A stretch of 64,000 nucleotides of DNA from Pseudofrankia saprophytica (GTDB taxonomy: Bacteria; Actinomycetota; Actinomycetes; Frankiales; Frankiaceae). The stretch covers positions 6,292,029 through 6,356,028 of the forward strand of contig NZ_KI912266.1 of NCBI RefSeq assembly GCF_000235425.2, given 5' to 3'. Below, one piece after another: positions 47,867 through 64,000 of this stretch; position 1 is the first letter of the stretch; each line of letters opens with the position of its first letter. Made by a program: the position numbers and the translations under genes. The notes below the pieces were generated by a model. That model was not told the DNA's origin. It saw only the letters and a list, made by a program, of their open reading frames with translations, and made no database searches.

Positions 47867-49327
47867 CTACGTGCCGTTGTCCTGTCTGCCCGTGGCCAGC
47901 AGGTCCTCCGTCTGGACATCCGGGAGGAACAGTGCCGCGATCGCCGCCGCGGCGGCGAGAACCGTGATCGCGATGGCGACGGTGTGCAGGGCGGGCACCT
48001 GCCCGACGCGGGCGCTGCGCTGGGTGAACAGGGTCGCGACGATCCCGATCCCGAACGAGCCGAGAACCCGCTGGACGACGTTGAAGGCGGTGTTCGCGTC
48101 CGCCTGCTGCTCGGGTCGCAGTGGCTCGGTCGCCACCAGGACCAGCGGCGTGATGACCAGCCCCACGGCCGCGGCGCGCAGCGTGAGGATCAGCCCGGTG
48201 AGCCACAGCGGGGTTCCCGCGCCGATCGCGAACAGGCCCGCGCTGGAGGCGACCAGCAGAAGGAACCCGCCGAGGACCGTGGGACGTACCCCGATCCGCG
48301 CGGCGGCGCCCGCGCCCGCCAGGGTGCCGACGCCGGTCACGATCCCCTGCGGCAGCAGCGCCACGCCGGTGATGAACGCCGAATGGCCCTGGCCCGACTC
48401 CAGGAAGATCGGGACCACGAACACGATCGACCAGGCCGCGACCGACGCCGCCCCACACAGGGTGAAGGCCAGCGCCACGGACCCCTGGCGCAGGATCGAC
48501 AGGTCGAGCGCCGGGTGCGGGATCCGGCCGGACCGGACCGCGTAGACGGCTAGTACGGCGACGCCGCCGACGATCGGCCCCCACGTCGCGGGCGGCGTCA
48601 GGGCGCCGCGGGTGATGCGGTCGACGCCGTAGAACACGGCCACCAGCCCGACCGCGAGCAGGCCGAGACCGGCGAGGTCAGGCCGGGCCGCCGGCTGGGC
48701 CGGTGGCCCGAGGTTCGCGGGCAGCCGCCGGGCCGCGGCGACGGCCAGCAGCCCGATCGGCACGTTGATCAGGAAGATGGCCCGCCAGCCCTCGCCGCCG
48801 CCGATCGCGCCGAGCAGCATGCCGCCGATGCTCGGGCCGAGCGCCGGGCCGAGGAAGAGCAGGACGCCCGCGGCCGGGGACATCCGCCTCGACCCGCCGG
48901 ACCCGCCGAGCAGCATCGACATCGCCAGCGGCACGAGCGGCGCGCCCGCGAGGCCCTGCAGCACCCGGGCGGCGATGAGCACCCCCACGCCCGGTGCCGC
49001 CCCGCACAGCGCAGACGCGGCGGTGAAGGCGGCGAGGAAGGCGGTGTAGGTGGGAATGGTGCCGAACCGCCGCGACAGATAAGAGGTGAGCACGAGCCCT
49101 GTGCCGAGGGCCAGCAGGTAACCGCTGACGATCCACTGCACCGTCGGCAGCGACGTGCCCGTCTGCCGGGAGATCGGCTCGACCGCGACGTTGACGATGC
49201 TGGAGTCGAGCATCGTCAACAGCGGGCCGGCGAGCAGCGCGTACTGCGCGCCCGGACGGAACCTGACCACCGGCGATGTAGCCGTATCGGCGGTCGTGTC
49301 CGGCATGGCCTCGGTCACCACGTCCAT
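47867..49327 (-). CDS. MFS transporter, DHA2 (14-TM drug:H+ antiporter) type
   Basis: 486-residue transporter with about 14 hydrophobic segments. The DHA2 motif 'LDSSIVNVAVEPISRQTGTS' lies in the first helix, and antiporter motif C is in 'LGPALGPSIGGMLLGAIGGG' followed by 'GWRAIFLINVPIG'. It should export drugs or a cell-made metabolite using the proton gradient. ATG 49327 has GAGGAGG upstream. It lies downstream of a WS/DGAT gene in the same direction (149 bp gap), which makes export of an esterified product a reasonable guess. Confidence 0.9.
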   Translation of the reverse strand: MDVVTEAMPDTTADTATSPVVRFRPGAQYALLAGPLLTMLDSSIVNVAVEPISRQTGTSLPTVQWIVSGYLLALGTGLVLTSYLSRRFGTIPTYTAFLAAFTAASALCGAAPGVGVLIAARVLQGLAGAPLVPLAMSMLLGGSGGSRRMSPAAGVLLFLGPALGPSIGGMLLGAIGGGEGWRAIFLINVPIGLLAVAAARRLPANLGPPAQPAARPDLAGLGLLAVGLVAVFYGVDRITRGALTPPATWGPIVGGVAVLAVYAVRSGRIPHPALDLSILRQGSVALAFTLCGAASVAAWSIVFVVPIFLESGQGHSAFITGVALLPQGIVTGVGTLAGAGAAARIGVRPTVLGGFLLLVASSAGLFAIGAGTPLWLTGLILTLRAAAVGLVITPLVLVATEPLRPEQQADANTAFNVVQRVLGSFGIGIVATLFTQRSARVGQVPALHTVAIAITVLAAAAAIAALFLPDVQTEDLLATGRQDNGT

Positions 49328-49476: not shown

Positions 49477-50832
49477 TCAGCGCGACGCGGAATCCGCGAC
49501 CAGCGCCGCCGCGGCCTGGTCGGCCGCCGGGACGATCCCGGCCGCGCGTTCCAGGCCCTCGATCTCGGCCAGCCAAAGCCTGGCCAGTTCCGCGGCGCGC
49601 GGCGCGGGCACGGTGAAGCCGGCCGTGGCCGTCCGCCCGAGGCCACCGAGCGTGACCACCACCTGCCGACGCCCCTCCCGCGCGGGCGGCACCGGCATCG
49701 CCGCGGTGACCGGAGCTCCCGCCACCGCCAGCGGCCCGGGAATCGGCCCCAGATTCGTCGTGTTCACCGCGGCCTTGCGAAGTTCCTGGCCGCCGCCGAT
49801 GGTCCGGCGGCCGAACCGGCTGGGCACCCGGTCGGACCAGAAGCGATCGCTGAGGCTCGCGCTCGAACCCCCTTTGTAGGGGGCGGTCTGGCGGCACACC
49901 TGCTCGAAACGCTCGCCTGGCGAGGTGAGCTCCAGGGGCAGTGCCACCCGGGTCGCCACGAAAGCGTTGCCGAGGATGGAGCGCTCGGCTGGGCGCCGGG
50001 CGCTGACCGAGAGCACCGTCCGCACCGGCAACTGATCCAGCGGCGACGACCAGGCCGCGAGCGCCCCGCCCATGCCGACCAGATAGACGTCGTTGACGGA
50101 GGCGCCGTAGGCCTGGCCGACCGCGCGCAGCCGGTCGACCTCGATGGACGCCCAGCCCATGCTGTGGCCATCGGCGGCGGGACCAGTGAGCGCCGCGAGC
50201 GCCCCGGACGGCCCTGCCCACGTCGTGGCCTGACGCCGCGCGGCCGACACCAGCCCCCCGGGCGTGAGCTTCCCGGTCCGCATCCAGGCCGGGCCCGTGG
50301 TGGCCCCGGCCGCCGCCTCATCGCCGAACAGGAACGTCAACACCCGGTTCTGCGAGAGACCGTCCACCCAGACGTGGCTGGACCGGAACAGGACATGGAC
50401 GTCGCCCGTGTCGGGGCTGGTGAGCAGGCCGACCTCCCAGGCCGGCCTGTCCAGCGGCATCACCATCCCCGAGAGCCGCCCGGCCGTCGCCCGCAGGTCG
50501 TCCTCGGTGGCGCCCGCCGGCAGCGGGTACTCCCGCACGTGCCGGGTCACGTCGATCTCCCCGTCCGCCTCCCAGCGCGGCGCGCGGCCACGACGCGTCA
50601 CCAGCCGCTCCGTGAGCACGGGGAATGCCCGGACACGGTCGAGAACCGCGGCCCGGACCTCGTCGAGATCCGGCGACCCGGACATCCGTAGCAGGTAACC
50701 GCTGACGCTGACCGGACGGGTCGGATAGGCCCGCTGGAAGTCGAGCATGTACCGGTCCATCGGGCTCAGCCGCCGGCCACCCGGGTACGCACCGTAAAGA
50801 GGCTCCGCGCCGTCGATGGAATCCGAGCGCAT
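49477..50832 (-). CDS. WS/DGAT-family O-acyltransferase
   Basis: 451-residue wax ester synthase/diacylglycerol acyltransferase-like protein. Such enzymes transfer an acyl group from acyl-CoA to an alcohol. The start 'LSPMDRYMLDFQRAYPTRPV' and the acceptor-site region 'VLFRSSHVWVDGLSQNRVLT' are family features. The HHxxxDG motif reads S152-H153-V-W-V-D157-G158, keeping the second, catalytic His. The conserved C-domain has 'ASVNDVYLVGMGGALAAWSS' and 'AVNTTNLGPIPGP'. ATG 50832. It is divergent from a second WS/DGAT at 51891 and followed by the MFS exporter. Confidence 0.85.
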   Translation of the reverse strand: MRSDSIDGAEPLYGAYPGGRRLSPMDRYMLDFQRAYPTRPVSVSGYLLRMSGSPDLDEVRAAVLDRVRAFPVLTERLVTRRGRAPRWEADGEIDVTRHVREYPLPAGATEDDLRATAGRLSGMVMPLDRPAWEVGLLTSPDTGDVHVLFRSSHVWVDGLSQNRVLTFLFGDEAAAGATTGPAWMRTGKLTPGGLVSAARRQATTWAGPSGALAALTGPAADGHSMGWASIEVDRLRAVGQAYGASVNDVYLVGMGGALAAWSSPLDQLPVRTVLSVSARRPAERSILGNAFVATRVALPLELTSPGERFEQVCRQTAPYKGGSSASLSDRFWSDRVPSRFGRRTIGGGQELRKAAVNTTNLGPIPGPLAVAGAPVTAAMPVPPAREGRRQVVVTLGGLGRTATAGFTVPAPRAAELARLWLAEIEGLERAAGIVPAADQAAAALVADSASR

Positions 50833-51843
50833 CTCGACCCCCGTCTCGCGACGCGGGCCCTACGCCGACGCCGAACCCGCCCCGCGCGGGAAGGGTTTCC
50901 ACCGCTCCTGGCCGAGGCCGAGAGCCACGCGTGACCGTAACGCCCTGTATGGGCGGTACTGCGACGGGCCAGCAGCCTACTGGCGCCCCAACGGGCGACC
51001 GCAAGGAGGTCGCGGATCGGATACACCGCCTCAAAGCGCTGAGCCCGAGCACCGGCGACGGGCCGAGCGAGCACATCAGCCGCCTGGCCGGGCTCCCACT
51101 CGGCGCACCCAGCGCCTCCCGGCCGCACCCAACGCCACCCGGCGCCACCCGGCCGCACCGCACCGCACCGGACTGGCCAGGCCGCCGGACGGCCCCGGGA
51201 TCGACGGCTCGAGACCGAATGAACGTTCCAGCGGTTTGGCGGCGTGCCTGGAAACATTCGGAGTCCGCCGTCCGCATTGCGCGTGCCGGTCGCATACTCG
51301 GCAGGCGATCAATGGGCCGCCGGGACGGATGGCCGAGGGGCGTCCAGATGCACCGATCATGGCGCATGATCCGCTGCCCGAGCCGGCCTGGAACTCTTAT
51401 CTTCGTGAATCTTCAACGGAGTCCGCACTCGCCGCGCGATTACACCTCGACCTCGGGCCAGAGGTAGTCATAAAACAGTACCCACCCTGTCGCGTCGGCG
51501 ACATCGTCCTCTCCGGCCGCCCGAGCTCCCTGTCTAGTATCTGTCCTCGGCCCGGGGTTGCCAACACCCGGGCCCGAACCTTCCAAAGCCGTAGACAATG
51601 CCATCTCCCCAGGTCAGAGCGCTGCCCGCACCCAACCGTTCCCGGGCGCCCTGGGAGCGGACTCCCAGGCGGACCAGGAAAGACCGGGATCACTTGCCGG
51701 ATTTTTCCCAGGTCCGGGGACCGCCGCCCACCTATATTCATCCTTGTCGTTCGGCTTACGACCGGCATCGCCGCACGGTCGGCACCCCGCCGCCGCCGCA
51801 CGCCGGAGGTAAACCGGTTTCCAGCTCAGCCAGGGAGCCAGTC
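50833..51843. other. Large intergenic region between divergent WS/DGAT genes
   Basis: 1011 bp without a supported gene. It contains C-rich short repeats near 51100-51180, a less GC-rich stretch at about 51230-51480 that is the likely promoter zone, and the palindrome GATCATG-GCG-CATGATC (51355-51371). Frames in it are Arg/Pro/Ser-rich and unlike protein. Its size suggests control sites for both gene groups. Confidence 0.5.
51355..51371. promoter_or_regulatory. Palindrome between divergent WS/DGAT genes
   Basis: GATCATG and CATGATC form a perfect 7+3+7 inverted repeat in the less GC-rich centre of the region, about 490 bp before the right-hand operon. A regulator-binding site is possible. Confidence 0.4.
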
Positions 51844-51894
51844 GTGAAAATCGCGCGGCGAACCGTCTGCGTTATCCAGGGCGGTCCGCGATGA
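51844..51894 (+). CDS. Possible 16-residue leader peptide coupled to WS/DGAT
   Basis: GTG 51844 has AGGGAG (51832-51837) six bases upstream and encodes 'VKIARRTVCVIQGGPR' (first codon read as Met). Its TGA overlaps the ATG of the WS/DGAT gene (ATGA). The WS/DGAT start itself has only a weak ribosome site, so the peptide may exist to deliver ribosomes to it. Alternatively the sequence is just a leader. Confidence 0.45.
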   Translation: MKIARRTVCVIQGGPR

Positions 51895-53501
51895 CAAGGT
51901 CGGGCGGCGAGACGGAAAGGCGCGAGCGGGCCACGGCGATCGCCGGCGGCCACGCGGACGCGCGAGCCCTCACCGCTGTCGACAAGATCACCCTTGGATA
52001 CCAGCGGGCGTATCCACGGACCCGGCTGGCGGTCGGAAACCTGCTGGTCGGCCATGGGCCGGCCCCGGAGATCCAGGAGCTGCGAGACCTGGTCGCGGAC
52101 CGGGCGCGCGCCTTTCCCCCGCTGACCCACCGGGTCACGCCGGCGGGATGGGGCCGCCTGGTCTGGACGCCCGACACCGACTTCGACCCCGCGTCACACG
52201 TCCATGGGTACCGGCTGCCGGCCGGATCCGGGTTCGCCGGGCTGCGCGAGGCGATCGAGCGGCTGTCCGCCATCGAGATCTCGCTGAAGACGCCGCCGTG
52301 GCAGCTCTGGCTGCTCCATGGCGACCGTCCCGACGGCTTCGCCCTGCTCTTCCGCGGCAGCCACGCCCAGATGGACGGAGCGGCCCTGGACGTGGTCCTG
52401 GGAAAGCTGTTCGGCCAGTCCAGCCCGGAGGAGCCCCGGGCGCCTCGGCGCCCGTTGCCGGAGCAACGCCGGTACAGCCCTCTGACGGTCGGTAAGGCGC
52501 TCGCGCGCTCGGTGGGCTGGCTCGCCAGCACCACCGCGATCGCCCCGTTCACCGGGGCCCCGACCGGCGAAACCCGCCACGCCTGGCTGGAGATCGACCT
52601 TGCCAGGCTGCGGACGATCGGGCGGGCGTACGTGGCGACCGTGAACGACATCTTCCTCGCCGCGCTCGCCGGCGCCCTGCGGGCGTGGTGCCCGCCGGAA
52701 GCCGGCACCACCGGCACCACCCGGTGGGTCCGGCGGCGCGCGGTACACGCCGCGATGCCGGTCAGCACCCGTCTCGCGGCGCAGCGGGAGGTGGTGAGCA
52801 ACTACCTGACCACCGTGCGGATCGCGCTGCCTTACGGCGAGGCGTCGATGCGCGGGCGGGTCGACGCGATCCGTCGGCAGACCATCCAGCTCAAGAGGAA
52901 CGGAACCCCGGGGGTCGCCGAGCGCCTCTTCCTCTGGACGGTCCCGGCGCCGTTGCGGACCGCGGTGCTGTCCACCGGGATCGCCACCCGCGGCTTCGCG
53001 CTCACGGCGTCCAACCCGGCCGGCCTCACCGGTCCCTTCGAGGTCCTCGGCCGGCCGATCATCGACGCCGTCCCCGTGCCGCCCGTCCCCGCCGGCCAGC
53101 GCCTGGCGGTGCTGCTGAGCGGGCTCGACGAGCAGGTGCGCGTCGGCTTCTCGACGGACGCCTCGGTGCCCGGCCATGAACGCCTGGCCGAGCTGTTCGC
53201 CGCCGAGCTCGACGCCCTCGAGGCCGAGGCTGGCATTCACCAGGACCCGTCCGACGGCGCGGTGGCACGCCCGGTGGGCAGCCTCGTCGGGCCGACCAGC
53301 CCGAGCGCCCCGGACTCCCCCGCTACGCACTTCCCGGCCCAGGACTCTCCCGGCACGCACTCCCTCGGTACCCCCGTCCCACAGTTCCCCATCCCGCACT
53401 CCCTCGGCATCCCTGCCACGGGCTCCGACCCACGATCGGCCGACGCGCCGGTCGCGGGCACGGGCGCGGGCGCGGGCGCGACCAGCCAGACCAGACAGTG
53501 A
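51891..53501 (+). CDS. WS/DGAT-family O-acyltransferase (first main gene of aromatic operon)
   Basis: 536-residue acyl-CoA:alcohol O-acyltransferase-like protein. It has 'LTAVDKITLGYQRAYPRTRL', the active-site motif S157-H158-A-Q-M-D162-G163 in 'LLFRGSHAQMDGAALDVVLG', and 'YVATVNDIFLAALAGALRAW' with 'TASNPAGLTGPFEVLGRPII' in the C-domain. From about residue 455 the protein runs into a Pro/Ser/His/Gly-rich tail with near-repeats, longer than in usual family members. It lies 18 bp before tyrA and heads an operon making an aromatic acyl-CoA, so its donor may be hydroxyphenylacetyl-CoA rather than a fatty acyl-CoA. Confidence 0.85.
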   Translation: MTRSGGETERRERATAIAGGHADARALTAVDKITLGYQRAYPRTRLAVGNLLVGHGPAPEIQELRDLVADRARAFPPLTHRVTPAGWGRLVWTPDTDFDPASHVHGYRLPAGSGFAGLREAIERLSAIEISLKTPPWQLWLLHGDRPDGFALLFRGSHAQMDGAALDVVLGKLFGQSSPEEPRAPRRPLPEQRRYSPLTVGKALARSVGWLASTTAIAPFTGAPTGETRHAWLEIDLARLRTIGRAYVATVNDIFLAALAGALRAWCPPEAGTTGTTRWVRRRAVHAAMPVSTRLAAQREVVSNYLTTVRIALPYGEASMRGRVDAIRRQTIQLKRNGTPGVAERLFLWTVPAPLRTAVLSTGIATRGFALTASNPAGLTGPFEVLGRPIIDAVPVPPVPAGQRLAVLLSGLDEQVRVGFSTDASVPGHERLAELFAAELDALEAEAGIHQDPSDGAVARPVGSLVGPTSPSAPDSPATHFPAQDSPGTHSLGTPVPQFPIPHSLGIPATGSDPRSADAPVAGTGAGAGATSQTRQ

Positions 53502-53519
53502 CGAAAGAGCGGTTCAGCG

Positions 53520-54686
53520 ATGACCATGCATGCACGCCTGGTTGATCTCGTGGCGGTGACGACGCCAGACCCGGACGCCGCGTCCCCCGCCGTTCCCACG
53601 ACTCCCACGTCCGCGGCCGACCTCGTGGACGCCGCGGACCTCGCGGACCTCGCGGGCCTGCGGGTCCTGGTGGTCGGTACCGGTCTGATCGGCACATCGG
53701 TCGGCATGGCGCTGCGCCGGCACGGGACCGACGTCCTGCTCTACGACCGGTACCCGGCCCAGTCCGCCGTGGCGGCCCGTCGCGGTGCCGGTCGGGTCTG
53801 GCCCTTCCCCGGCCCCCGTCAGGCCGGCCTCGCCGGGCCGCGCCCGGTCGATGCCGCGGACGCCGGCGCCCGCGGCGCGCAGGCGGACGACCCCGCGGCC
53901 GACGCGGGCGACCCCGCGGCGAGCGCCGGGCAGGCCGTCGACCACGTCGTGATCGCCGTTCCCCCGCGCGACGTGGGCCACACGCTCGTCGCCTGGCAGC
54001 GCCTGCTTCCCGGGGCGACGTTCAGCGACACGGCGTCGGTGAAGGTCGAGCCGCTGACCGACGCCGAGCGCCTCGGCGCGGACATGTCCCGGATCTGCGG
54101 CGCCCACCCGGTGGCCGGCCGCGAGCGCGGCGGTCCCGAATGGGCCGTGGCGGACCTGTTCGCCAACCGGCCCTGGGTCATCACCCCGTCGGCGGCGACG
54201 TCGCGGCTCGCCCAGCGGCACGCGAGCCTCATGGCCGTCGGCTGCGGCGCCTGGGTCGCGCACCTCGACCCGCGCACGCACGACTTCGCTCTCGGCCTGC
54301 TCAGCCATCTGCCGCACATCGTGGCCAGCGCCTTCGCGGCTCGGCTGGCGACGATGCCGGAGGACCTCGCCCGCCTCGCCGGTCCCGGCCTGATGGACTT
54401 CACCCGGATCGCGGGGGCGAACGCCGACCTCTGGACGGAGATCGTCGGAGCCAACGCGTCCCCGCTGGCGGACCTGCTCGCCGACGTCGTCGCCGACCTC
54501 GACCGGGTGCGCGACGCCCTCGGCGCGGGCGCGGTCCAGGGCAGCGGGACCGATCCGGTCGTCGAGTCGCTGTTCCGGATGGGGAACACGGGCCGCTGTC
54601 GGCTGGAGGCGGCGAAGGCCCTGCCAGCCCCTCGGACGGCCATCGACGACCACATCGGCGGTGTCGACGGGCGGATGTCCGCATGA
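53520..54686 (+). CDS. tyrA: Prephenate dehydrogenase (TyrA family)
   Basis: 388-residue NAD(P)-dependent dehydrogenase that oxidatively decarboxylates prephenate to 4-hydroxyphenylpyruvate. It has the dinucleotide motif GTGLIG (53-58), 'SDTASVKVEPL' (Ser173, Lys175) and the prephenate-site 'GAHPVAGRERGGPEWAV' (His196). An Ala/Gly/Asp-rich insert of about 45 residues (95-140) and a long N-terminus are unusual. The stop overlaps the E1alpha start (ATGA). Placement inside a 2-oxoacid dehydrogenase/hydroxylase operon suggests a dedicated copy for specialised metabolism rather than tyrosine supply. Confidence 0.87.
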   Translation: MTMHARLVDLVAVTTPDPDAASPAVPTTPTSAADLVDAADLADLAGLRVLVVGTGLIGTSVGMALRRHGTDVLLYDRYPAQSAVAARRGAGRVWPFPGPRQAGLAGPRPVDAADAGARGAQADDPAADAGDPAASAGQAVDHVVIAVPPRDVGHTLVAWQRLLPGATFSDTASVKVEPLTDAERLGADMSRICGAHPVAGRERGGPEWAVADLFANRPWVITPSAATSRLAQRHASLMAVGCGAWVAHLDPRTHDFALGLLSHLPHIVASAFAARLATMPEDLARLAGPGLMDFTRIAGANADLWTEIVGANASPLADLLADVVADLDRVRDALGAGAVQGSGTDPVVESLFRMGNTGRCRLEAAKALPAPRTAIDDHIGGVDGRMSA

Positions 54687-55807
54687 CCACCGAGGCCGCG
54701 GGCAGGCTCGACCCGCTCGTCGCCGGGCTGCTCCCCTCGCCGTCGCCGGTTCGTTTCCTCGACCCCGGCGGCGAGCCCGTCGACGAGCACGACGGCTACC
54801 GGCCACCGGCGGACGAGCTGCTGGTCCGGGCGTACGAGGCCATGACGCTGGTCCGCCGCCTCGACACCCAGGCCACGGCGCTGGCCAGGCAGGGCCGGAT
54901 CGCGGCCTTCCCGTCGTCATCGGGCCAGGAGGCGTGCCAGGCCGGCGCGGCGCTGGCGCTGCGCCCGCGCGACTGGCTGTTCCCGACCTACCGGGACAGC
55001 GGCGCGCTGCTGTCGCGGGGCGTGGACCCCCTGGAGGTGCTGGCCCCTGTCCGCGGGCACCGGCACTGCGGCTACGACCCCCGCGCCCACCGGTGCGCGC
55101 CGATGAGCACGCCGCTGGCGACCCAGGCGCCGCACGGCACGGGCCTGGCCGTCGCGGCCCGCTGGCAGGGCACGGACGAGGTCGCGCTCGTCCTTCTCGG
55201 CGACGGCGCGACCAGCGAGGGTGACTTCCACGAGGCGCTGAACTTCGCCGCGGTGTTCCGCGCCCCGGTGGTGTTCCTGGTGCAGAACAACCGCTACGCG
55301 ATCAGTGTCCCCGTCTCCCGGCAGAGCGCGGCGCCGTCGCTGGCCTACAAGGGCATCGGCTACGGGGTACGCGCCGAGCAGGTCGACGGCAACGACGCCG
55401 TCGCCGTCCTGTCGGTGCTGGCCGAGGCCGTGGACCACGCCCGGGCCGGCCTCGGGCCGATGCTGGTCGAGGCGCACACCTACCGCATGGGGCCGCACAC
55501 CAGCGCGGACGACGCGAGCCGCTACCGGGACGACGGTGAGGTGGCGATCTGGCGGGCGCGGGACCCGATCGAACGCCTGCGGGCGTACCTGCGCGGGCGG
55601 GGCCTGCTCGACGACGCGGCCGAGGCGGCCGTCGCGGCGCGGGCGGAGGCGCTCGCCGCCCGAGTCAGGGCCGGCGTGGCCGAGGACCCGTCGGTCGAGC
55701 CGACGGAGATCCTCGACCAGGTCTACGCCGTCGCGCCGGCCTTCCTGGCCGAGCAGCGCGCGGCGCTGCTGTCCGAACTCGACGCGGAGGGCGGGGCCGC
55801 GCGATGA
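54683..55807 (+). CDS. 2-oxoacid dehydrogenase E1 component, alpha subunit
   Basis: 374-residue thiamine-diphosphate subunit of the pyruvate/branched-chain 2-oxoacid dehydrogenase type. It has 'MTLVRRLDTQATALARQGRI', 'FPSSSGQEACQAGAALALRP' and the ThDP motif 'LLGDGATSEGDFHEALNFAA' with 'VFLVQNNRYAISVPVSRQ'. The phosphorylation-loop equivalent 'AHTYRMGPHTSADDASRYR' is conserved. With E1beta and E2 it would decarboxylate a 2-oxoacid and pass the acyl group on. The substrate is proposed to be 4-hydroxyphenylpyruvate from the adjacent tyrA. It overlaps both neighbours by ATGA. Confidence 0.9.
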   Translation: MTTEAAGRLDPLVAGLLPSPSPVRFLDPGGEPVDEHDGYRPPADELLVRAYEAMTLVRRLDTQATALARQGRIAAFPSSSGQEACQAGAALALRPRDWLFPTYRDSGALLSRGVDPLEVLAPVRGHRHCGYDPRAHRCAPMSTPLATQAPHGTGLAVAARWQGTDEVALVLLGDGATSEGDFHEALNFAAVFRAPVVFLVQNNRYAISVPVSRQSAAPSLAYKGIGYGVRAEQVDGNDAVAVLSVLAEAVDHARAGLGPMLVEAHTYRMGPHTSADDASRYRDDGEVAIWRARDPIERLRAYLRGRGLLDDAAEAAVAARAEALAARVRAGVAEDPSVEPTEILDQVYAVAPAFLAEQRAALLSELDAEGGAAR

Positions 55808-56907
55808 CCACGAGCCAGCACGTCAGGCCGGGCGCCTCGTCCCCGGGCGGGCAGGTGGGCCCGGCGGGAGACGGTACGGACCGGGCGGCGGCGGTGACCA
55901 TGACGCAGGCGCTCAACCGGGCGCTGCGGGACGCGATGGCGGCGGACGACCGGGTGCTGGTCCTCGGCGAGGACGTGGGCCGCCTCGGCGGCGTCTTCCG
56001 CGTCACCGACGGTCTGCAGGGCGCCTTCGGCGAGCGGCGCTGCTTCGACACACCACTGGCGGAGGCCGGGATCGTCGGGTTCGCGGTGGGCCTGGCGATG
56101 TACGGCCTGCGGCCGGTCGTGGAGCTGCAGTTCGACGCGTTCGCCTATCCGGCGTTCGAGCAGGTGGTAAGTCACGTGGCGAAGCTGGGCGCGCGCACCG
56201 CGGGCCGCCTCCGGCCGGGCATGGTGCTGCGGATCCCCTACGGCGGCGGGGTGGGCGCGGTCGAGCACCACTCCGACAGCTCGGAGGCGTACTACGCGCA
56301 CACGGCCGGCCTGAAGGTCGTGACCCCGGCGACGGTCGCGGACGCCTACTCCCTGCTGCGGGACGCGATCGACGATCCCGACCCGGTGGTGTTCCTGGAG
56401 CCGAAACGGCTGTACTGGAACCGTTCACCGGTGGACCTGCCCGTGCGGACCGAGCCGCTGGGCCGGGCAGCCGTGCGTCGGACCGGGCGGGACGTGACGG
56501 TGGTGACGTACGGGGCGACCGTCCCGGTCGCGCTGGAGGCCGCCCAGGTCGCCGCCGGGCACGGCTGGGATGTCGAGGTCGTCGACCTGCGCTCGATCGT
56601 GCCGTTCGACGACGACACGGTCGTCGCCAGCGTGCGGCGCACCGGCCGCTGCGTGGTCCTGCACGAGGCCCAGGGATTCGCCGGGGTCGGCGCGGAGATC
56701 GCGGCCCGCGTCCAGGAACGCTGCTTCCACTCGCTGGCGGCGCCGGTCCTGCGGGTGACCGGGTGGGACATCCCATACCCAGCTCCGAAGCTGGAGCACC
56801 ACCACCAGCCGGGCGTCGCGCGCGTCCTGGCCGCGTTCGAGCGCCTGCAGTGGGACGACGAACCGGACACCCGCTGGCTCGACACGGGCGGGGGCCTGGC
56901 GTCATGA
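55804..56907 (+). CDS. 2-oxoacid dehydrogenase E1 component, beta subunit
   Basis: 367-residue transketolase-like subunit that completes the E1 heterotetramer. Blocks seen are 'MTQALNRALRDAMAADDRVL', 'VLGEDVGRLGGVFRVTDGLQ', 'FDTPLAEAGIVGFAVGLAMY', 'RIPYGGGVGAVEHHSDSSEA' and the C-terminal 'TGWDIPYPAPKLEHHHQP'. The last resembles branched-chain (BkdB) more than pyruvate dehydrogenases. It is coupled by ATGA overlaps to E1alpha and E2. Confidence 0.92.
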   Translation: MTTSQHVRPGASSPGGQVGPAGDGTDRAAAVTMTQALNRALRDAMAADDRVLVLGEDVGRLGGVFRVTDGLQGAFGERRCFDTPLAEAGIVGFAVGLAMYGLRPVVELQFDAFAYPAFEQVVSHVAKLGARTAGRLRPGMVLRIPYGGGVGAVEHHSDSSEAYYAHTAGLKVVTPATVADAYSLLRDAIDDPDPVVFLEPKRLYWNRSPVDLPVRTEPLGRAAVRRTGRDVTVVTYGATVPVALEAAQVAAGHGWDVEVVDLRSIVPFDDDTVVASVRRTGRCVVLHEAQGFAGVGAEIAARVQERCFHSLAAPVLRVTGWDIPYPAPKLEHHHQPGVARVLAAFERLQWDDEPDTRWLDTGGGLAS

Positions 56908-58289
56908 ACGGTTCGCGTGGCGGTGCCGCCACGGCCTCAGCGACCTCCACCAGTCCTGGGGCCGGCGTCGCCGAGTTCGCCGTCCCCGATCTCGGCGAGG
57001 GGCTGACCGACGCGGTCGTGGTGCGGTGGCTCGTCGAGGTCGGGGACCCGGTCGAGATCGACCAGCCGATCGTGGAGATGGAGTCGGCGAAGGCGCTCGT
57101 CGAGATTCCCTGCCCGTACGCCGGGATCGTCGAGGCCCGCCACGGCGGCGAGGGCGACGTCCTGCCGGTCGGCTCACCCCTCGTGCGGGTCCGGGAGCGG
57201 GCCGCCGCGGTCACCGACCGGCCGGCCGGTCGCACCGACCAGCCGGCCGCGCCGGCGCTCGTCGGCTTCGGCCCCGCCGCGGCGGGGCCCAGCGCGGCCA
57301 GGCGGCCGCGGCCGCCGAAGCCGGTCACCCACGCCGCCGCGGGCGATCAGGCCGCGCAAGCCGCCGACGGCACCCCGGCCACTCCGGCCAACGCGGCCAA
57401 CGCGGCCAACGCCCCGAGGATCATCTCGCCCGTGGTCCGGCGGCTCGCCCAGGCCGCGGGTCTCGATCTGGCCACGGTCGCCGCCACGGCCACCGGCGCC
57501 GGCGGCGTCATCCGCCGGGCGGACGTGGAACGTCTCCTGGCCTCGCCCGGTCACGCCGAGAGCCATCCCCCGGCGTCCCCTGAGCCGCCAGCCGCGCCCG
57601 CGATCCGCCGGATTCCGCTGGCGGCCAGGCGGGTGGTCGCGGAGCGGATGACACGCAGCCGCAGGGAGATCCCGGAGGCGACGGCCTGGCGCGACGTGGA
57701 CTTCACCGACCTGCTCGCGGCCCGTGAGGCGATCAACGCTGACAGCCGGGACCGGCCGGTGAGCGTGCCCGGCCTGCTGGCCAGGATCTGCGTCGCGGGG
57801 CTCGCGCGCCATCCCGAGCTCAACGCCACCGTCGACACCGAGCGGGGCGAGATCGTCCAGTATCGGTCGGTCAACCTGGGATTCGCGATCGCCGGCGCCC
57901 GGGGCCTCGTCGTCCCGGTCATCCCGAACTCCGACGCGATGACGGCGCCAGCGCTGTCCGAACGGCTCCAGGAACTGACCTCCCGGGCCCAGGCCGGCTC
58001 GTTGACTCCGGCCGAGCTCACCGCGGGCACGTTCACCATCAACAACCACGGCGCACTCGGCACGGACGGCGCGGTCCCGATCATCAACCATCCCGAGGTC
58101 GCGCAGCTCGCGGTGGGCCGGATCGCCGAGCGGCCCTGGGTCGTGGACGGCGAGATCCGACCGCGGCGGGTGGCTCAGCTCACCGTCGCCTTCGACCACC
58201 GCGCCTGCGACGGCGCACCGGTGGCCGGCTTCATCACCTTCCTGGCCCGCTGCGTCGAGCAGCCGCTTCTCATGATCTCCGAACTGTAG
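56904..58289 (+). CDS. 2-oxoacid dehydrogenase E2 (dihydrolipoamide acyltransferase)
   Basis: 461-residue E2. It has one lipoyl domain (residues 22-95) with the lipoyl-lysine Lys63 in 'EMESAKALVEI' and a Pro/Ala-rich linker. A peripheral subunit-binding domain follows ('ISPVVRRLAQAAGLDLATVA', 'GGVIRRADVERLL'), then the catalytic acyltransferase domain ending in 'VAFDHRACDGAPVAGFI' with the DHRxxDG active site. It transfers the acyl group to CoA. No E3 (lipoamide dehydrogenase) gene is in the operon, so it must use the cell's general one. Confidence 0.92.
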   Translation: MNGSRGGAATASATSTSPGAGVAEFAVPDLGEGLTDAVVVRWLVEVGDPVEIDQPIVEMESAKALVEIPCPYAGIVEARHGGEGDVLPVGSPLVRVRERAAAVTDRPAGRTDQPAAPALVGFGPAAAGPSAARRPRPPKPVTHAAAGDQAAQAADGTPATPANAANAANAPRIISPVVRRLAQAAGLDLATVAATATGAGGVIRRADVERLLASPGHAESHPPASPEPPAAPAIRRIPLAARRVVAERMTRSRREIPEATAWRDVDFTDLLAAREAINADSRDRPVSVPGLLARICVAGLARHPELNATVDTERGEIVQYRSVNLGFAIAGARGLVVPVIPNSDAMTAPALSERLQELTSRAQAGSLTPAELTAGTFTINNHGALGTDGAVPIINHPEVAQLAVGRIAERPWVVDGEIRPRRVAQLTVAFDHRACDGAPVAGFITFLARCVEQPLLMISEL

Positions 58290-58324
58290 ATCGAACTGTA
58301 GGAAAGAAGGACGAGGTACCAAAG

Positions 58325-59758
58325 ATGGGCGCGCGAACCGGCAAGGAGTTCCTCGAGGGGCTGGTGGACGACCGCGAGGTCTGGCTGGACGGCGAACGAG
58401 TGGCCGACGTGACCGCGCATCCGCGGACCGCCGGCGCCGCCAGGACCCTCGCGGGCCTGTTCGACCTGCAGCACGAGCGGCCCGACCAGTTCCTGGCCGT
58501 GGAGCCGGAGAGCGGGGAGACGGTCGCGGTCACGCACCTGATCCCCCGCTCGGCCGCGGACCTGGCCCGCCGGCACGAGGCGATCGCCGGCATCGCCCGG
58601 CGCACCCTGGGGCTGATGGGCCGCAGCCCCGACTACCTCAACGTCACGCTCGCCGGCTTCGCCGGGCGTCCGGACGTGTTCAGGCGCGGCGGCAACGACG
58701 AGGGCACCGCCAACCTGCTCGCGTACCACCGTCAGGTCATGCGCGACGACCTTGCGCTGACCCACGCGATTGTCAACCCGACCGTCGACCGGTCGATGCC
58801 GGAGACCGCGGCCGGCGGCGGCGAGATCGTCGTCCACAAGGTGGCCGACACCTCGGAAGGGATCGTGGTGCGCGGCGCCCGGGCGCTGGCGACCCTCGCG
58901 CCGTTCGCCGACGAGATCTTCGTCTATCCCGGCTACCCGCTGGCCGAGGGCGACGAGCGCTACGCCGTGATCTTCGCCATCCCGATGTCCACGCCGGGCC
59001 TGAAGGTGCTCTGCCGGGACAGCTACTCCTCGACGGCGCCGGCGGCCGACGCGCCCCTGTCGAGCCGGTTCGACGAGCAGGACGCCGTCATCGTCTTCGA
59101 CGACGTCGAGGTGCCGCGCCACCGCGTCTTCCTCGACGGCGACGTGGACCTCTACAACCGCGTCATGCAGCGGTCCGGCTGGACCGCCAACGTCATGCAG
59201 CAGACGACGATCCGGGCCGTCTCGAAGCTCCAGTTCGCCTGGGAGCTCGCGACCAGGATGGCCGGGGCCGTCAACAACACCAGCCCCGCGGCCGTTGAGA
59301 TGCTCGGCGAGATCTGGAGCTACCTGGAGCTGACCCGGTCGACGCTGACCGCCGCGGAGGCCGGCGCCCACGAGTGGGGGTCGGGAACCTGGTTCTGCGC
59401 CGAGCCGCCGTTCGCGGCCCTGCGCCCCACGCTGCCCCGCTGGTTCCCCAGGGTGACCGAGATCATCAAGCTGCTGGGGAGCCACAGCCTGCTGGCCACC
59501 CCGACCCAGGCCGAGCTGGCGAACCCGCTGCTGCGCCCGCTGGTGGACCGCTACTACCAGGGCGCGAACGGCCTGCCCGCCGACGAGCGGACGGCGCTGT
59601 TCCGGCTGGCCTGGGACTTCGTCGGCACCAGCCTGGCGGGCCGCTCCGACCTGTACGAGCGGTTCTACCTCGGCTCGCCGGGCCGTTTCCTGCAGCTCGC
59701 CCAGCGCCAGGCGGCCCGCGGCGCCGACTTCGCCCTGGTCGACTCGGTCCTGTCCTGA
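58325..59758 (+). CDS. HpaB-family flavin-dependent aromatic hydroxylase
   Basis: 477-residue protein of the 4-hydroxyphenylacetate 3-monooxygenase oxygenase family, which uses FADH2 and oxygen to place a hydroxyl ortho to a phenol. Blocks seen are 'YLNVTLAGFAGRPDVF', 'DLALTHAIVNPTVDRS', 'RFDEQDAVIVFDDVEVPRHR' and 'IIKLLGSHSLLATPTQAELA'. The Cys/His set of the related 4-hydroxybutyryl-CoA dehydratase is absent, so a hydroxylase is favoured. No HpaC reductase is adjacent. It starts 35 bp after E2 in the same direction and so probably hydroxylates the 4-hydroxyphenylacetyl product of the upstream enzymes. GGACGAGG lies before ATG 58325. Confidence 0.88.
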   Translation: MGARTGKEFLEGLVDDREVWLDGERVADVTAHPRTAGAARTLAGLFDLQHERPDQFLAVEPESGETVAVTHLIPRSAADLARRHEAIAGIARRTLGLMGRSPDYLNVTLAGFAGRPDVFRRGGNDEGTANLLAYHRQVMRDDLALTHAIVNPTVDRSMPETAAGGGEIVVHKVADTSEGIVVRGARALATLAPFADEIFVYPGYPLAEGDERYAVIFAIPMSTPGLKVLCRDSYSSTAPAADAPLSSRFDEQDAVIVFDDVEVPRHRVFLDGDVDLYNRVMQRSGWTANVMQQTTIRAVSKLQFAWELATRMAGAVNNTSPAAVEMLGEIWSYLELTRSTLTAAEAGAHEWGSGTWFCAEPPFAALRPTLPRWFPRVTEIIKLLGSHSLLATPTQAELANPLLRPLVDRYYQGANGLPADERTALFRLAWDFVGTSLAGRSDLYERFYLGSPGRFLQLAQRQAARGADFALVDSVLS

Positions 59759-60955: not shown

Positions 60956-62092
60956 TTACCAGGGGCGACCGCCGGGCCCACCGGGCTGCCCGAACAAGCC
61001 GCCGAGAGCGCCGCCAAAGCCGCCCTGCAGATGGCCGGGCTGGCCGGAGCCGTGCGGGTTGCCCTGCCCGCCGAGCCGGTTGCCGGCGAAGCCGCCCTGG
61101 CCGACGCCGAACAGGCCGGCCGCGCCGCCGCCGGACAACGCCTGGTACGGCGGCAGCAGCTCACTCGGCTGAATGATCGCGTAACCATCGCCAGCGAACG
61201 ACATCTGCCAGCTCTCGCCCGTGTTGCCGCGCGGCTTCCACGCCGACGAGGACGTCACGGCGGCCTCCATGGAGACCTGCAGACCGCTCGACCAGCCGAC
61301 GACCGCGTCCGCGTCGGCGAAGTAGTAGTTCTGCGGCGTGACCCGCATGACCAGCGGCGCGCCGGTGGTGCACAGCGCGACCTTGCCTGAGCCGGTCAGC
61401 TCGACCTGGTAGCTGCCGACGCCCGCGATGCCGACGTCGCTCTGGATCCGGACGATGTTCCAGTTCAGGCTCATGTCGAAGGCGAGCACGTTGCGCCCGT
61501 CGATGGTCACGCCGTCGCGGCCGTCCAGGTCGAGCAGGAAGATGTCCTGCGCCTGGTAGGCGAGGAAGACGCTGCCCGCGCCGGACACCTTCATCAGATG
61601 CAGGCCTTCGCCGTCGCCGAAGAGGTGGCTGAAGTGCCCGGCCCAGCCCTCCCACTGCCCGTCGAACTGGGCGGCGCCCTGGTAGGCGACCATCGAGCCG
61701 GCGCGCGCGAAGAACTCGCGCATGCCCTGGGCGCCGAGCGTCGCCTTGAGCATCTTGCCGTTCTGCAGCGTGAACCGCTCGCCGCTGGCCACCTCGGGGT
61801 TGTCGAGCAGCGAGCTGCGGATCCCGGCGCTCGGGTTGCCGCCCGGCATGCCACCCATCCCGGCCGGCGGGGGCGGCATGCCGGGGGGCATGCCGCCTGG
61901 CGGCGGTGGCATGCCCGGAGGCATCCCACCTGGCGGCGGCGGGAAGCCAGCGCCAGGGGGCGGCGGGTAGCCACCTGGCTGAGGCGGATAGCCGCCACCG
62001 GGCGGCGGCGGGTAGCCACCTGGCTGAGGCGGATAGCCCCCTCCGGGGGGCGGCGGGTAGCCGTGGCCGGGCGGCGGCGGTGGGTAGCTCAT
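60956..62092 (-). CDS. AIM24-family protein with Pro/Gly-rich N-terminus
   Basis: 378-residue protein. The first 95 residues are Pro/Gly/Tyr repeats of the type 'GGGYPPQPGGYPPPP', then 'GGMPPGMPPPP'. An AIM24 (TraB-like beta-roll) domain follows at about 105-320: 'LKATLGAQGMREFFARAGSM', 'SGAGSVFLAYQAQDIFLLDL', 'GVTIDGRNVLAFDMSLNWNI' and 'MRVTPQNYYFADADAVVGWS'. The Gly-rich tail ends in 'GGRPW'. Bacterial AIM24 proteins co-occur with TerD proteins in stress systems; the molecular role is unknown. ATG 62092 has GGAAGGA upstream. It is the last gene of a three-gene AIM24 operon. Confidence 0.87.
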   Translation of the reverse strand: MSYPPPPPGHGYPPPPGGGYPPQPGGYPPPPGGGYPPQPGGYPPPPGAGFPPPPGGMPPGMPPPPGGMPPGMPPPPAGMGGMPGGNPSAGIRSSLLDNPEVASGERFTLQNGKMLKATLGAQGMREFFARAGSMVAYQGAAQFDGQWEGWAGHFSHLFGDGEGLHLMKVSGAGSVFLAYQAQDIFLLDLDGRDGVTIDGRNVLAFDMSLNWNIVRIQSDVGIAGVGSYQVELTGSGKVALCTTGAPLVMRVTPQNYYFADADAVVGWSSGLQVSMEAAVTSSSAWKPRGNTGESWQMSFAGDGYAIIQPSELLPPYQALSGGGAAGLFGVGQGGFAGNRLGGQGNPHGSGQPGHLQGGFGGALGGLFGQPGGPGGRPW

Positions 62093-62157
62093 GACGTCGT
62101 CCTTCCAGCCACGGCGGGGCCAGCGGCGGACCTGCTGACGGTGGGCGGCACGGGTCG

Positions 62158-62850
62158 TCAGCCCCGGACCGCGAAGTTCGGGCGCTCGTCCTCGCTCGGC
62201 TGCACGACGACGAAGCCCTGGCCGTGGAAGCCGAGCTGGAACGCCTCGCCGGAGCCGCGGCCGAACATGCTGCCGAAGCCGGCGGTGCGCCGCTTTTCGA
62301 TGCTCAGGCCCTCGGTGTAGGCGACCAGCGCGTCGGTGTCGACGAAGGTCGGCGCCTCGCGGGTGTCAAGCATGATCGGGTTGCCCTTGGAGACCATCGC
62401 GACCCAGCCCGCGCCCTGGGTGTTGTTGCGGATGACCACGTTGAACATGCCCATGCCCGACAGCATGGTCACGCCCTTCACCCGCTCGATCCCCCACTGC
62501 AGGCTGGCGTCGAACGCGAGGATGTTCTTGCCGTTTACCGACACGGCCTCACCCGGGGTGAGCTGCAGGACGATGACGTCCTTGCCGTAGTCGGCGAGGT
62601 AGAGCAGGCCCTGGCCGCGCGCCGTCATCAGCGGCACACCCTCGCCGGTGGCCCAGCTGGAGGCCAGCCGGCGCACCTCCGGCGGCTGCGGGTCGAACTC
62701 GATCAGGCCCTCGTAGCCGATCATCGAGCCGGACCGCGCGAACAGGTCGAAGCCCGGCCACATGACCACCTTGGCGATCTTCGACCCGTGCTTGCTCATC
62801 CGGTCCATGACCGGGGTCGGGCCGTAGTGCTGAATCAGCTGTCCCTGCAC
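62158..62850 (-). CDS. AIM24-family protein
   Basis: 230-residue protein consisting almost only of an AIM24 domain: 'HGSKIAKVVMWPGFDLFARS', 'GQGLLYLADYGKDVIVLQLT', 'VSVNGKNILAFDASLQWGIE' and 'FQLGFHGQGFVVVQPSE'. GTG 62850 is preferred because GAGGAG lies just upstream and the family's N-terminus then fits ('QGQLIQHYGPTPVMDRM'). GTG 62898 would add 16 acidic residues. It is the middle gene of the operon, 65 bp before the third gene. Confidence 0.87.
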   Translation of the reverse strand: MQGQLIQHYGPTPVMDRMSKHGSKIAKVVMWPGFDLFARSGSMIGYEGLIEFDPQPPEVRRLASSWATGEGVPLMTARGQGLLYLADYGKDVIVLQLTPGEAVSVNGKNILAFDASLQWGIERVKGVTMLSGMGMFNVVIRNNTQGAGWVAMVSKGNPIMLDTREAPTFVDTDALVAYTEGLSIEKRRTAGFGSMFGRGSGEAFQLGFHGQGFVVVQPSEDERPNFAVRG

Positions 62851-62922
62851 CGCGGGCTCCTCGTCTGCGTCTGCGCCGCCCGCGTCATCGCGGGACACCT
62901 ACGGGTCTCGGCCATCGCGGGC

Positions 62923-64000
62923 TCACACCTCGTACGGCTGGACGACGATGAAGTGGCCGCCGCCCATCCCCTGGAACTGCAGGTTGTGGGACTCGCCGCT
63001 GGCCGTGTGGTAGACCTGCCGCGAGATCCGGACCTGCGACGACACGCTGACGCGCATCCCGACGGTCCAGGCGACCAGCGCGTTGATGTCCCCGAACGTC
63101 GGCCCCTGCACGGGCAGCGTCATCGGCGTGCCCTTCGTCATCACGACGATGGTGCCCGGGCCGGACATCTCGAAATGGAAGATGCCGCCGCCCGGGATGC
63201 CGGCGCTCTCGATCCGCTTGACCTCGCTGGTGATCGTCGCGTCGAAGGCCAGCACGTTCTTGGTGTTGACGCACAGCTTCTGGCCGGGGCCGAGCTCGAC
63301 GATGTGCAGGTCGGACGCGTCCTGGGCGAGGAACACCTCGCCTTGGCCCTTGCAGGTCATGAGCTTCAGGCCCTGCCCGGTGAGCTTCTCCTCGATCATC
63401 CCGCGCAGGCCGCGGCTCTTGTAGTCGAACTCGATGTTGCCCTGGTAGGCGACCATCGCGCCCCGCAATGCCATCGCGTCCTCGCCGAGGCGGACCTTGA
63501 CCAGCTTGCTGTTCTGCTGCACCCAGCGGCCCTGTGCCTGGTTCTCGGCATACGAGGTGAGGCTCGCCATCGCGCCCGGCGGCACCGGCTGCGCCTGCGA
63601 CGGCGGTGGCTCCTTGTACAGGTTCACCAGCGGCGACGCGGCGCCGGCCGCCGCGGCCGGCGGCTGGCCATAGCCCGGCGCCTGGGGCGCGGCGGGTGCC
63701 GGCGGGCGCGCGGCCGGTCCACCGGGGGGCGGCGCGAAGCCACCAGCCGGAGCGGGCGGCGGGGCGAAGCCACCGGCCGGAGCGGGGGGCGGCGGGGCGA
63801 AGCCACCCGCCGCCGGCGCGGGCGGCGGCGCGGGCGCCGGGTCCTCGACCTCGCCGCCGAAGGAACGGATGAGCTCCGCGAGCCCGCCGGCGAAGCCCTG
63901 CCCGTTCGCGGTGACCCGCCAGACGCCCTTGCGGTACACGTCGCCGATCATGACGGCGCGCTCGGAGGTGAAGTCGGCCCCGGTGAACGGGTACCGCATC
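62923..64000 (-). CDS. TerD-AIM24 fusion protein (N-terminus outside window)
   Basis: Partial, 359 codons seen. Residues near the window edge are the end of a TerD domain ('RAVMIGDVYRKGVWRVTANG', 'QGFAGGLAELIRSFGGEVED'), a calcium-binding fold of the tellurite/stress-resistance system. A Pro/Ala linker of about 90 residues with repeated 'APAGGFAPPP' units follows. A complete AIM24 domain then closes the protein ('NSKLVKVRLGEDAMALRGAM', 'VNTKNVLAFDATITSEVKRI', 'GGGHFIVVQPYEV'). The ATG at 63999 is inside the TerD domain, so the real start lies beyond the window. It is first of three AIM24 genes and physically links TerD to AIM24. Confidence 0.88.
   Translation of the reverse strand, partial: MRYPFTGADFTSERAVMIGDVYRKGVWRVTANGQGFAGGLAELIRSFGGEVEDPAPAPPPAPAAGGFAPPPPAPAGGFAPPPAPAGGFAPPPGGPAARPPAPAAPQAPGYGQPPAAAAGAASPLVNLYKEPPPSQAQPVPPGAMASLTSYAENQAQGRWVQQNSKLVKVRLGEDAMALRGAMVAYQGNIEFDYKSRGLRGMIEEKLTGQGLKLMTCKGQGEVFLAQDASDLHIVELGPGQKLCVNTKNVLAFDATITSEVKRIESAGIPGGGIFHFEMSGPGTIVVMTKGTPMTLPVQGPTFGDINALVAWTVGMRVSVSSQVRISRQVYHTASGESHNLQFQGMGGGHFIVVQPYEV

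Follow-up and report, generated by a model that had tools for sequence, protein, structure and literature searches.

A recurrent gene block in Pseudofrankia that could convert prephenate into a hydroxylated arylacetyl group for transfer to an acceptor

A stretch of 64,000 nucleotides (hereafter the window) from the genome of Pseudofrankia saprophytica, which comprises 9,978,592 bases in 2 contigs, contains six consecutive plus-strand genes for a wax ester synthase/diacylglycerol acyltransferase (WS/DGAT)-like protein (AT1), a second-copy prephenate dehydrogenase (TyrA), the E1alpha, E1beta and E2 subunits of a 2-oxoacid dehydrogenase, and an HpaB-type FAD-dependent phenol ortho-hydroxylase. 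Together with divergent genes for a second WS/DGAT-like acyltransferase (AT2) and a major facilitator superfamily (MFS) exporter, they form an eight-gene block that recurs in other species. We estimate at about 0.55 the probability that these genes encode a dedicated pathway in which prephenate is converted to 4-hydroxyphenylpyruvate and then to 4-hydroxyphenylacetyl-CoA, the aryl group being ortho-hydroxylated and transferred to an acceptor. This pathway, put forward in an original prediction made from the DNA letters, is the best-supported reading of the locus.

The six genes run head to tail: AT1 at 51891–53501, tyrA at 53520–54686, E1alpha at 54683–55807, E1beta at 55804–56907, E2 at 56904–58289 and hpaB at 58325–59758. 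The original prediction had recognised six genes in one direction and their families, all of which are confirmed by Pfam matches over the cut-offs, and had counted four tight junctions; all five are tight (+18, −4, −4, −4 and +35 bp), three of them being ATGA-type overlaps. At the corresponding loci L022 and L023 of other genomes each of the first four junctions is a 4-bp overlap, as are the first three at L024. The extent given earlier has to be corrected: its start, 51844, is a GTG that lies in another frame than the acyltransferase gene, for which the first in-frame start is the ATG at 51891, and it omitted the paralogous AT2 gene (49477–50832, minus strand) and the gene for the DHA2/EmrB-like MFS exporter (47867–49327, minus strand; MFS_1, 116.5 bits; TIGR00711, 213 bits, below the cut-off of 230). 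Both accompany the six genes in three other genomes (L022, L023 and L024). The observation itself holds and is stronger than originally stated.

The eight genes are found in the same order in four of the eight genomes of the genus, those of P. saprophytica, Pseudofrankia sp. BMG5.36, P. asymbiotica and Frankia nepalensis CN7, so the order is not unique to the source genome. All eight are open in all four carriers, and nonsynonymous divergence (dN) is lower than synonymous divergence (dS) in all 24 comparisons (each of the 8 genes in 3 genomes); with the order kept in three other genomes, the arrangement is more than chance. In the non-carriers G001, G002 and G003, none of the eight genes was found in the DNA fetched around the AIM24 gene that neighbours the block, and the flanking genes are ∼5.7 kb apart in G001 and G003 versus 12.9 kb in the window; the G002 stretch included a single flanking gene, and the eighth genome, G007, fell outside this comparison. 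The block, absent there and whole in the carriers, therefore comes and goes as a unit. TyrA matches at E ≤1e-90 came from 4 of 35 genomes of the family, the same four block carriers, and HpaB of at least 79% identity from 5 of the 97 relatives searched, the source genome included (9 at E ≤1e-60). A profile scan of genome contigs with the HpaB alignment retrieved 31 loci, 4 from Frankiaceae and 27 others; in the DNA fetched for the latter, which included some short contigs, TyrA, E1, E2 or acyltransferases were found beside HpaB in none of the 27.

That these genes belong together is best supported by a rearranged set in Frankia sp. AiPa1. Contig C143 of that genome encodes orthologues of HpaB (79% identity), TyrA (55%), E1alpha (68–70%), E1beta (77%) and E2 (48% and 64% over two pieces), in the order HpaB, a 472-aa HxxxD protein, TyrA, GT2, acyltransferase-3, glycosyltransferases, a DUF2206 membrane protein, a flippase, two more glycosyltransferases, E1alpha, E1beta and E2. 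From HpaB to E2 the genes extend over ∼23 kb, and the locus, which has a sugar-phosphate transferase upstream, is of polysaccharide type. The E1alpha encoded there groups with that of the window (support 100/100), and a further E1alpha from this wider clade lies on a different AiPa1 contig. The occurrence of the same enzymes together in two arrangements argues for a shared pathway. The 472-aa protein belongs to a family present in 22 of 97 relatives; its H143 and D147 (P0001) are invariant among four aligned relatives, for which reason we regard it as a putative acyltransferase. Among PDB sequences nothing matched it better than E 0.57, and in Pfam nothing at E ≤1; its AlphaFold model (mean pLDDT, the predicted local distance difference test score, 34.5) is unusable. 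DUF2206 had no match in any of the three carriers searched (P. saprophytica, P. asymbiotica and Pseudofrankia sp. BMG5.36), and the AiPa1 sugar locus is therefore not common to the carriers.

The TyrA of the block carries PDH_N and PDH_C domains and scores below the NCBIfam equivalog cut-off (best 237.6 vs 294 bits). TyrA enzymes depend on a catalytic His and on substrate-binding motif residues, and the motifs GAHPxxGRE, SDxxSVK, SHLPH and DFTRIA are kept in the block TyrA of the four genus genomes and in AiPa1 (SDTGSVK there); with these motifs intact, the protein looks active. A gene order unique to this genome, with tyrA as the only copy needed for tyrosine synthesis, was named in the original prediction as refuting it. 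Neither applies: the order recurs, and another tyrA lies at 4.37 Mb in the same genome (4372238–4373182 of contig C1; 47% identity over the first half and 42% over the second), and the block copy would be dispensable for tyrosine synthesis if that other copy works.

The dehydrogenase genes make up a full set of the pyruvate dehydrogenase/branched-chain 2-oxoacid dehydrogenase (PDH/BCKDH) kind, all over the Pfam cut-offs: E1alpha (E1_dh, 259.8 bits), E1beta (Transket_pyr and Transketolase_C) and an E2 with lipoyl, E3-binding and catalytic domains (Biotin_lipoyl, E3_binding and 2-oxoacid_dh), the translation of which contains ESAKA and DHRACDG motifs. E1alpha matches were found in 59 genomes; 15 regions were fetched, 13 of which entered the tree (L116 and L119 were left out). 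In this tree of 35 rows the five E1alphas of the block form one branch (100/100, stem 0.48), nested in a clade with copies from other actinobacteria, including a group of genomes (f18) which we take to be Streptomyces and whose E1 loci we take to be bkd operons. Residue 75 is Ala in 5 of 5 block copies and Val in 12 of 12 clade relatives, and it corresponds in the alignment to Thermus Phe66, presumably a substrate contact; the Ala is compatible with a bulkier substrate. In E1beta, residues 129 Gly, 130 Ala/Ser, 133 Ala/Gly and 152 Ala replace what are mainly Arg, Asn, Arg and Gly in 10 relatives. The block-specific residues of both subunits point to a changed pocket, without naming the substrate. 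E1alpha is set apart both by its branch and by the residue at this presumed pocket position, which supports the original prediction. In 7 of 7 f18 loci fetched (L114–L120; 11 f18 genomes had matches) the E1 operon adjoins genes for PaaN (987 bits in L118, over the cut-off), a PaaH-like protein and an Lrp-type regulator; this proximity suggests that the dehydrogenase is linked to arylacetyl-CoA metabolism. Neither PaaN nor PaaH was found in the 8 other E1 loci fetched, 4 of which had the regulator; unlike the f18 loci, the block shows no Lrp-type regulator gene with its E1/E2.

HpaB (HpaB_N, 286.6 bits; HpaB, 145.9 bits) scores 361 bits against the TIGR02309 equivalog, for which the cut-off is 480. 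In the alignment to Thermus HpaB (2YYG) the phenol triad Arg100, Tyr104 and His147 is kept, in agreement with its original assignment as a phenol ortho-hydroxylase, and Gly203-Tyr204 replace Ser197-Thr198 in 5 of 5 Frankiaceae HpaB. A passage in PMC10537072 describes the roles of the Arg-Tyr-His residues in phenol binding and assigns to Thermus Ser197-Thr198 the binding of the 4-hydroxyphenylacetate carboxylate. A passage in PMC6710988 reports no detectable transformation of 4-hydroxyphenylacetate by AphA, an alkylphenol hydroxylase from Rhodococcus that has His-Tyr where Thermus HpaB has Ser-Thr. The neighbours of HpaB were gene-called in 5 of the 31 loci and family-scanned in 3 (L045 and L059 were called and left unscanned); in 3 of 3 scanned loci the HpaB relatives adjoin HpaE-, HpaD-, HpaG-, HpaH- or reductase-like genes, all below curated cut-offs. 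Taken with the kept triad and with AphA, these relatives make it likely that the substrate of the block HpaB is arylacetate-like, and plausible that it is a form without a free carboxylate. Three HpaB relatives with 53–58% identity (L044, L047 and L063) lie in homoprotocatechuate-like clusters though they are without the Ser-Thr pair. Because such relatives also lack the pair, its loss is not by itself proof of an ester substrate, and that argument was dropped.

AT1 matches WS_DGAT_cat and WS_DGAT_C over the Pfam cut-offs, AT2 the catalytic domain only (73.9 bits), and both fall below the TIGR02946 cut-off of 310 (195 and 135 bits, respectively). AT2 is 33% identical to AT1. The WS/DGAT motif is HHxxxDG; AT1 and AT2 have SHxxxDG, the second His and the Asp being kept in 8 of 8 aligned rows. 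The best PDB sequence matches of AT1 were 7nxg and 6chj, and Foldseek likewise placed these two WS/DGAT structures on top for its AlphaFold model (mean pLDDT 44.8), a likeness which, at template-modelling scores of only 0.27–0.36, may lend weak support to the assignment.

In the pathway that we favour, TyrA would convert prephenate to 4-hydroxyphenylpyruvate, which the specialised E1/E2, with an E3 from elsewhere in the genome, would turn into 4-hydroxyphenylacetyl-CoA. HpaB, served by a flavin reductase likewise encoded elsewhere, would hydroxylate the ring ortho to the phenol and so yield a 3,4-dihydroxyphenylacetyl (catechol) group; it would probably act on the thioester or the finished ester, a form without a free carboxylate. 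One or both acyltransferases would then load this acyl group onto an acceptor that offers an alcohol or amine, after which the MFS protein would export the product. The substrates, the order of the steps, the borrowed E3 and reductase, the acceptor and the product are what we infer from the gene families. The prediction is thus partly borne out: the recurrent order and set, the second tyrA, the E1 branch and the kind of HpaB speak for it, but its lipid product is not favoured, because the AiPa1 genes lie in a polysaccharide-type locus and those of the window beside an exporter, and a non-lipid acceptor is at least as likely as a lipid. As the prediction supposed, no paper on this gene set was found in the literature searched, which mostly excludes subscription journals; each enzyme type is known, and the combination seems undescribed. 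PMC8542509 and PMC9760358 give antiSMASH counts for strains belonging to two of the carrier species, in passages that do not mention the locus.

Several findings weigh against this pathway. No E3 or flavin reductase gene is present among the eight genes (a genome-wide search for them was not made), and E3 is often encoded elsewhere. In AiPa1, sugar genes separate E1/E2 from TyrA, ∼14 kb away, and from HpaB, ∼18 kb away, and hhalign did not connect the alignment of AT1 and AT2 with the 472-aa protein. TyrA, HpaB or acyltransferases lie near none of the 15 other E1 loci examined. Ser-Thr occurs at the two HpaB columns in none of the 27 other loci, hpa-like ones included, and Gly-Tyr in none either, in an alignment that is uncertain for the most distant rows and has two partial ones. 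Moreover, E1alpha passes the NCBIfam pyruvate dehydrogenase model TIGR03181 (424 vs a cut-off of 411 bits), as does an f18 relative. Given this score and a clade that includes probable Streptomyces bkd operons, pyruvate or branched-chain 2-oxoacids are possible substrates.

The E1/E2 might accordingly be an ordinary branched-chain or pyruvate complex supplying isobutyryl-, isovaleryl- or acetyl-CoA, with TyrA and HpaB making a separate catechol to which the acyltransferases add an aliphatic acyl group. Its best PDB matches, a Thermus 2-oxo acid dehydrogenase (219 bits), which we take to be a BCKDH, and Geobacillus PDH (204 bits), would suit such a role, and WS/DGAT enzymes commonly use aliphatic acyl-CoA. 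The genome, however, has two further E1alpha-E1beta-E2 operons of this kind, so that a third ordinary one would be redundant; E1alpha forms a branch of its own with a smaller residue at the pocket position, and tyrA and E1 are translationally coupled. On balance we consider an ordinary complex unlikely. Hydroxylation could instead come first, or take place on the keto acid, the product being a small exported catechol (siderophore-like or a pigment) rather than an arylacetyl-decorated glycan or lipid; a catechol-forming HpaB, an MFS exporter and the lack of a glycosyltransferase inside the Pseudofrankia block would all fit. The AiPa1 locus is nevertheless rich in glycosyltransferases and has a flippase, and no NRPS-like (nonribosomal peptide synthetase-like) or siderophore gene is found among the block neighbours scanned, which makes a small catechol quite improbable. 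That the genes are catabolic, degrading aromatic amino acids or phenolics, is brought to mind by the HpaB relatives in homoprotocatechuate-like clusters and by the E1 relatives beside phenylacetate genes in f18 genomes, but we give it very little credence: TyrA is an entry to biosynthesis, ring-cleavage genes were found neither within the block nor in the ten scanned neighbours, and two acyltransferases with an exporter are ill-suited to degradation.

The AT2 and AT1 genes are separated by a divergent intergenic region of 1058 bp (50833–51890) with conserved blocks, which may hold a promoter or operator. Among these blocks is a palindrome, TGTCGC-GTCG-GCGACA, at 51488–51503, found in the same place in the three other carriers; a scan of 163 loci gave six matches, from three carrier genomes twice each, and none in the other 157. 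It is a possible operator. A 16-codon open reading frame at 51844–51893, with a GTG start and overlapping the AT1 start, was rejected as a leader peptide: its differences mostly change residues, and in P. asymbiotica it stops one codon early. The DNA of 51844–51893 is highly conserved. The annotation of window genes covered the part to the right of 34.5 kb. Downstream of the operon, on the minus strand at 60956–63999, three consecutive frames match each other at 31–36% (tblastn), and the one scanned is of the AIM24 family. HpaB and an SMR gene are only 753 bp apart in the window; in Pseudofrankia sp. BMG5.36 (L022:14811–17804) Fic/DOC, LemA and DUF2207 genes separate the two.

If the favoured pathway is true, the block would encode, complete in itself, a path that leads from the shikimate pathway to an activated catechol acyl group and needs neither amino acid transamination nor a CoA ligase. 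It would also give access to a class of arylacetyl-modified molecules or surface glycans of Frankiaceae which standard biosynthetic signatures would hardly predict; no polyketide synthase or NRPS gene lies within the eight-gene block. Position 75 of E1alpha is a testable residue for re-tuning a BCKDH-type complex to aromatic 2-oxoacids. A more tentative and rather doubtful extension is that TyrA, an aryl-specific E1/E2, HpaB and an acyltransferase constitute a mobile cassette that makes 3,4-dihydroxyphenylacetyl-CoA from prephenate for acceptors differing between lineages: in Pseudofrankia a small molecule or glycolipid that is exported, in AiPa1 a polysaccharide of the cell surface. Such a cassette would imply catechol-bearing glycans on root-nodule or soil actinobacteria and, to our knowledge, the first lipoyl-dependent dehydrogenase complex dedicated to 4-hydroxyphenylpyruvate.

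The proposed system resembles several known ones in its parts. AT1 and AT2 share Pfam domains with WS/DGAT acyltransferases, and AT1 its best PDB matches, but they differ in the first motif residue and in their TIGR02946 scores, and an arylacetyl donor is proposed for them. HpaB is homologous over its full length to the Thermus enzyme 2YYG and keeps the phenol-binding residues, whereas it has Gly-Tyr for Ser197-Thr198. With actinobacterial BCKDH-type (bkd) operons the dehydrogenase genes share order and domain set (53–58% identity in E1alpha and 69–71% in E1beta to the f18 copies), whereas those of the block are coupled to tyrA and hpaB and form their own branch with Ala75. The chemistry has a parallel in the biosynthesis of tropodithietic acid in Phaeobacter, for which a passage in PMC5577590 describes the oxidative decarboxylation of phenylpyruvate by Ior1 to a phenylacetyl-CoA building block; the enzyme there is an indolepyruvate oxidoreductase, whereas the block discussed here has a lipoyl-dependent E1/E2, a TyrA of its own and a phenol hydroxylase.

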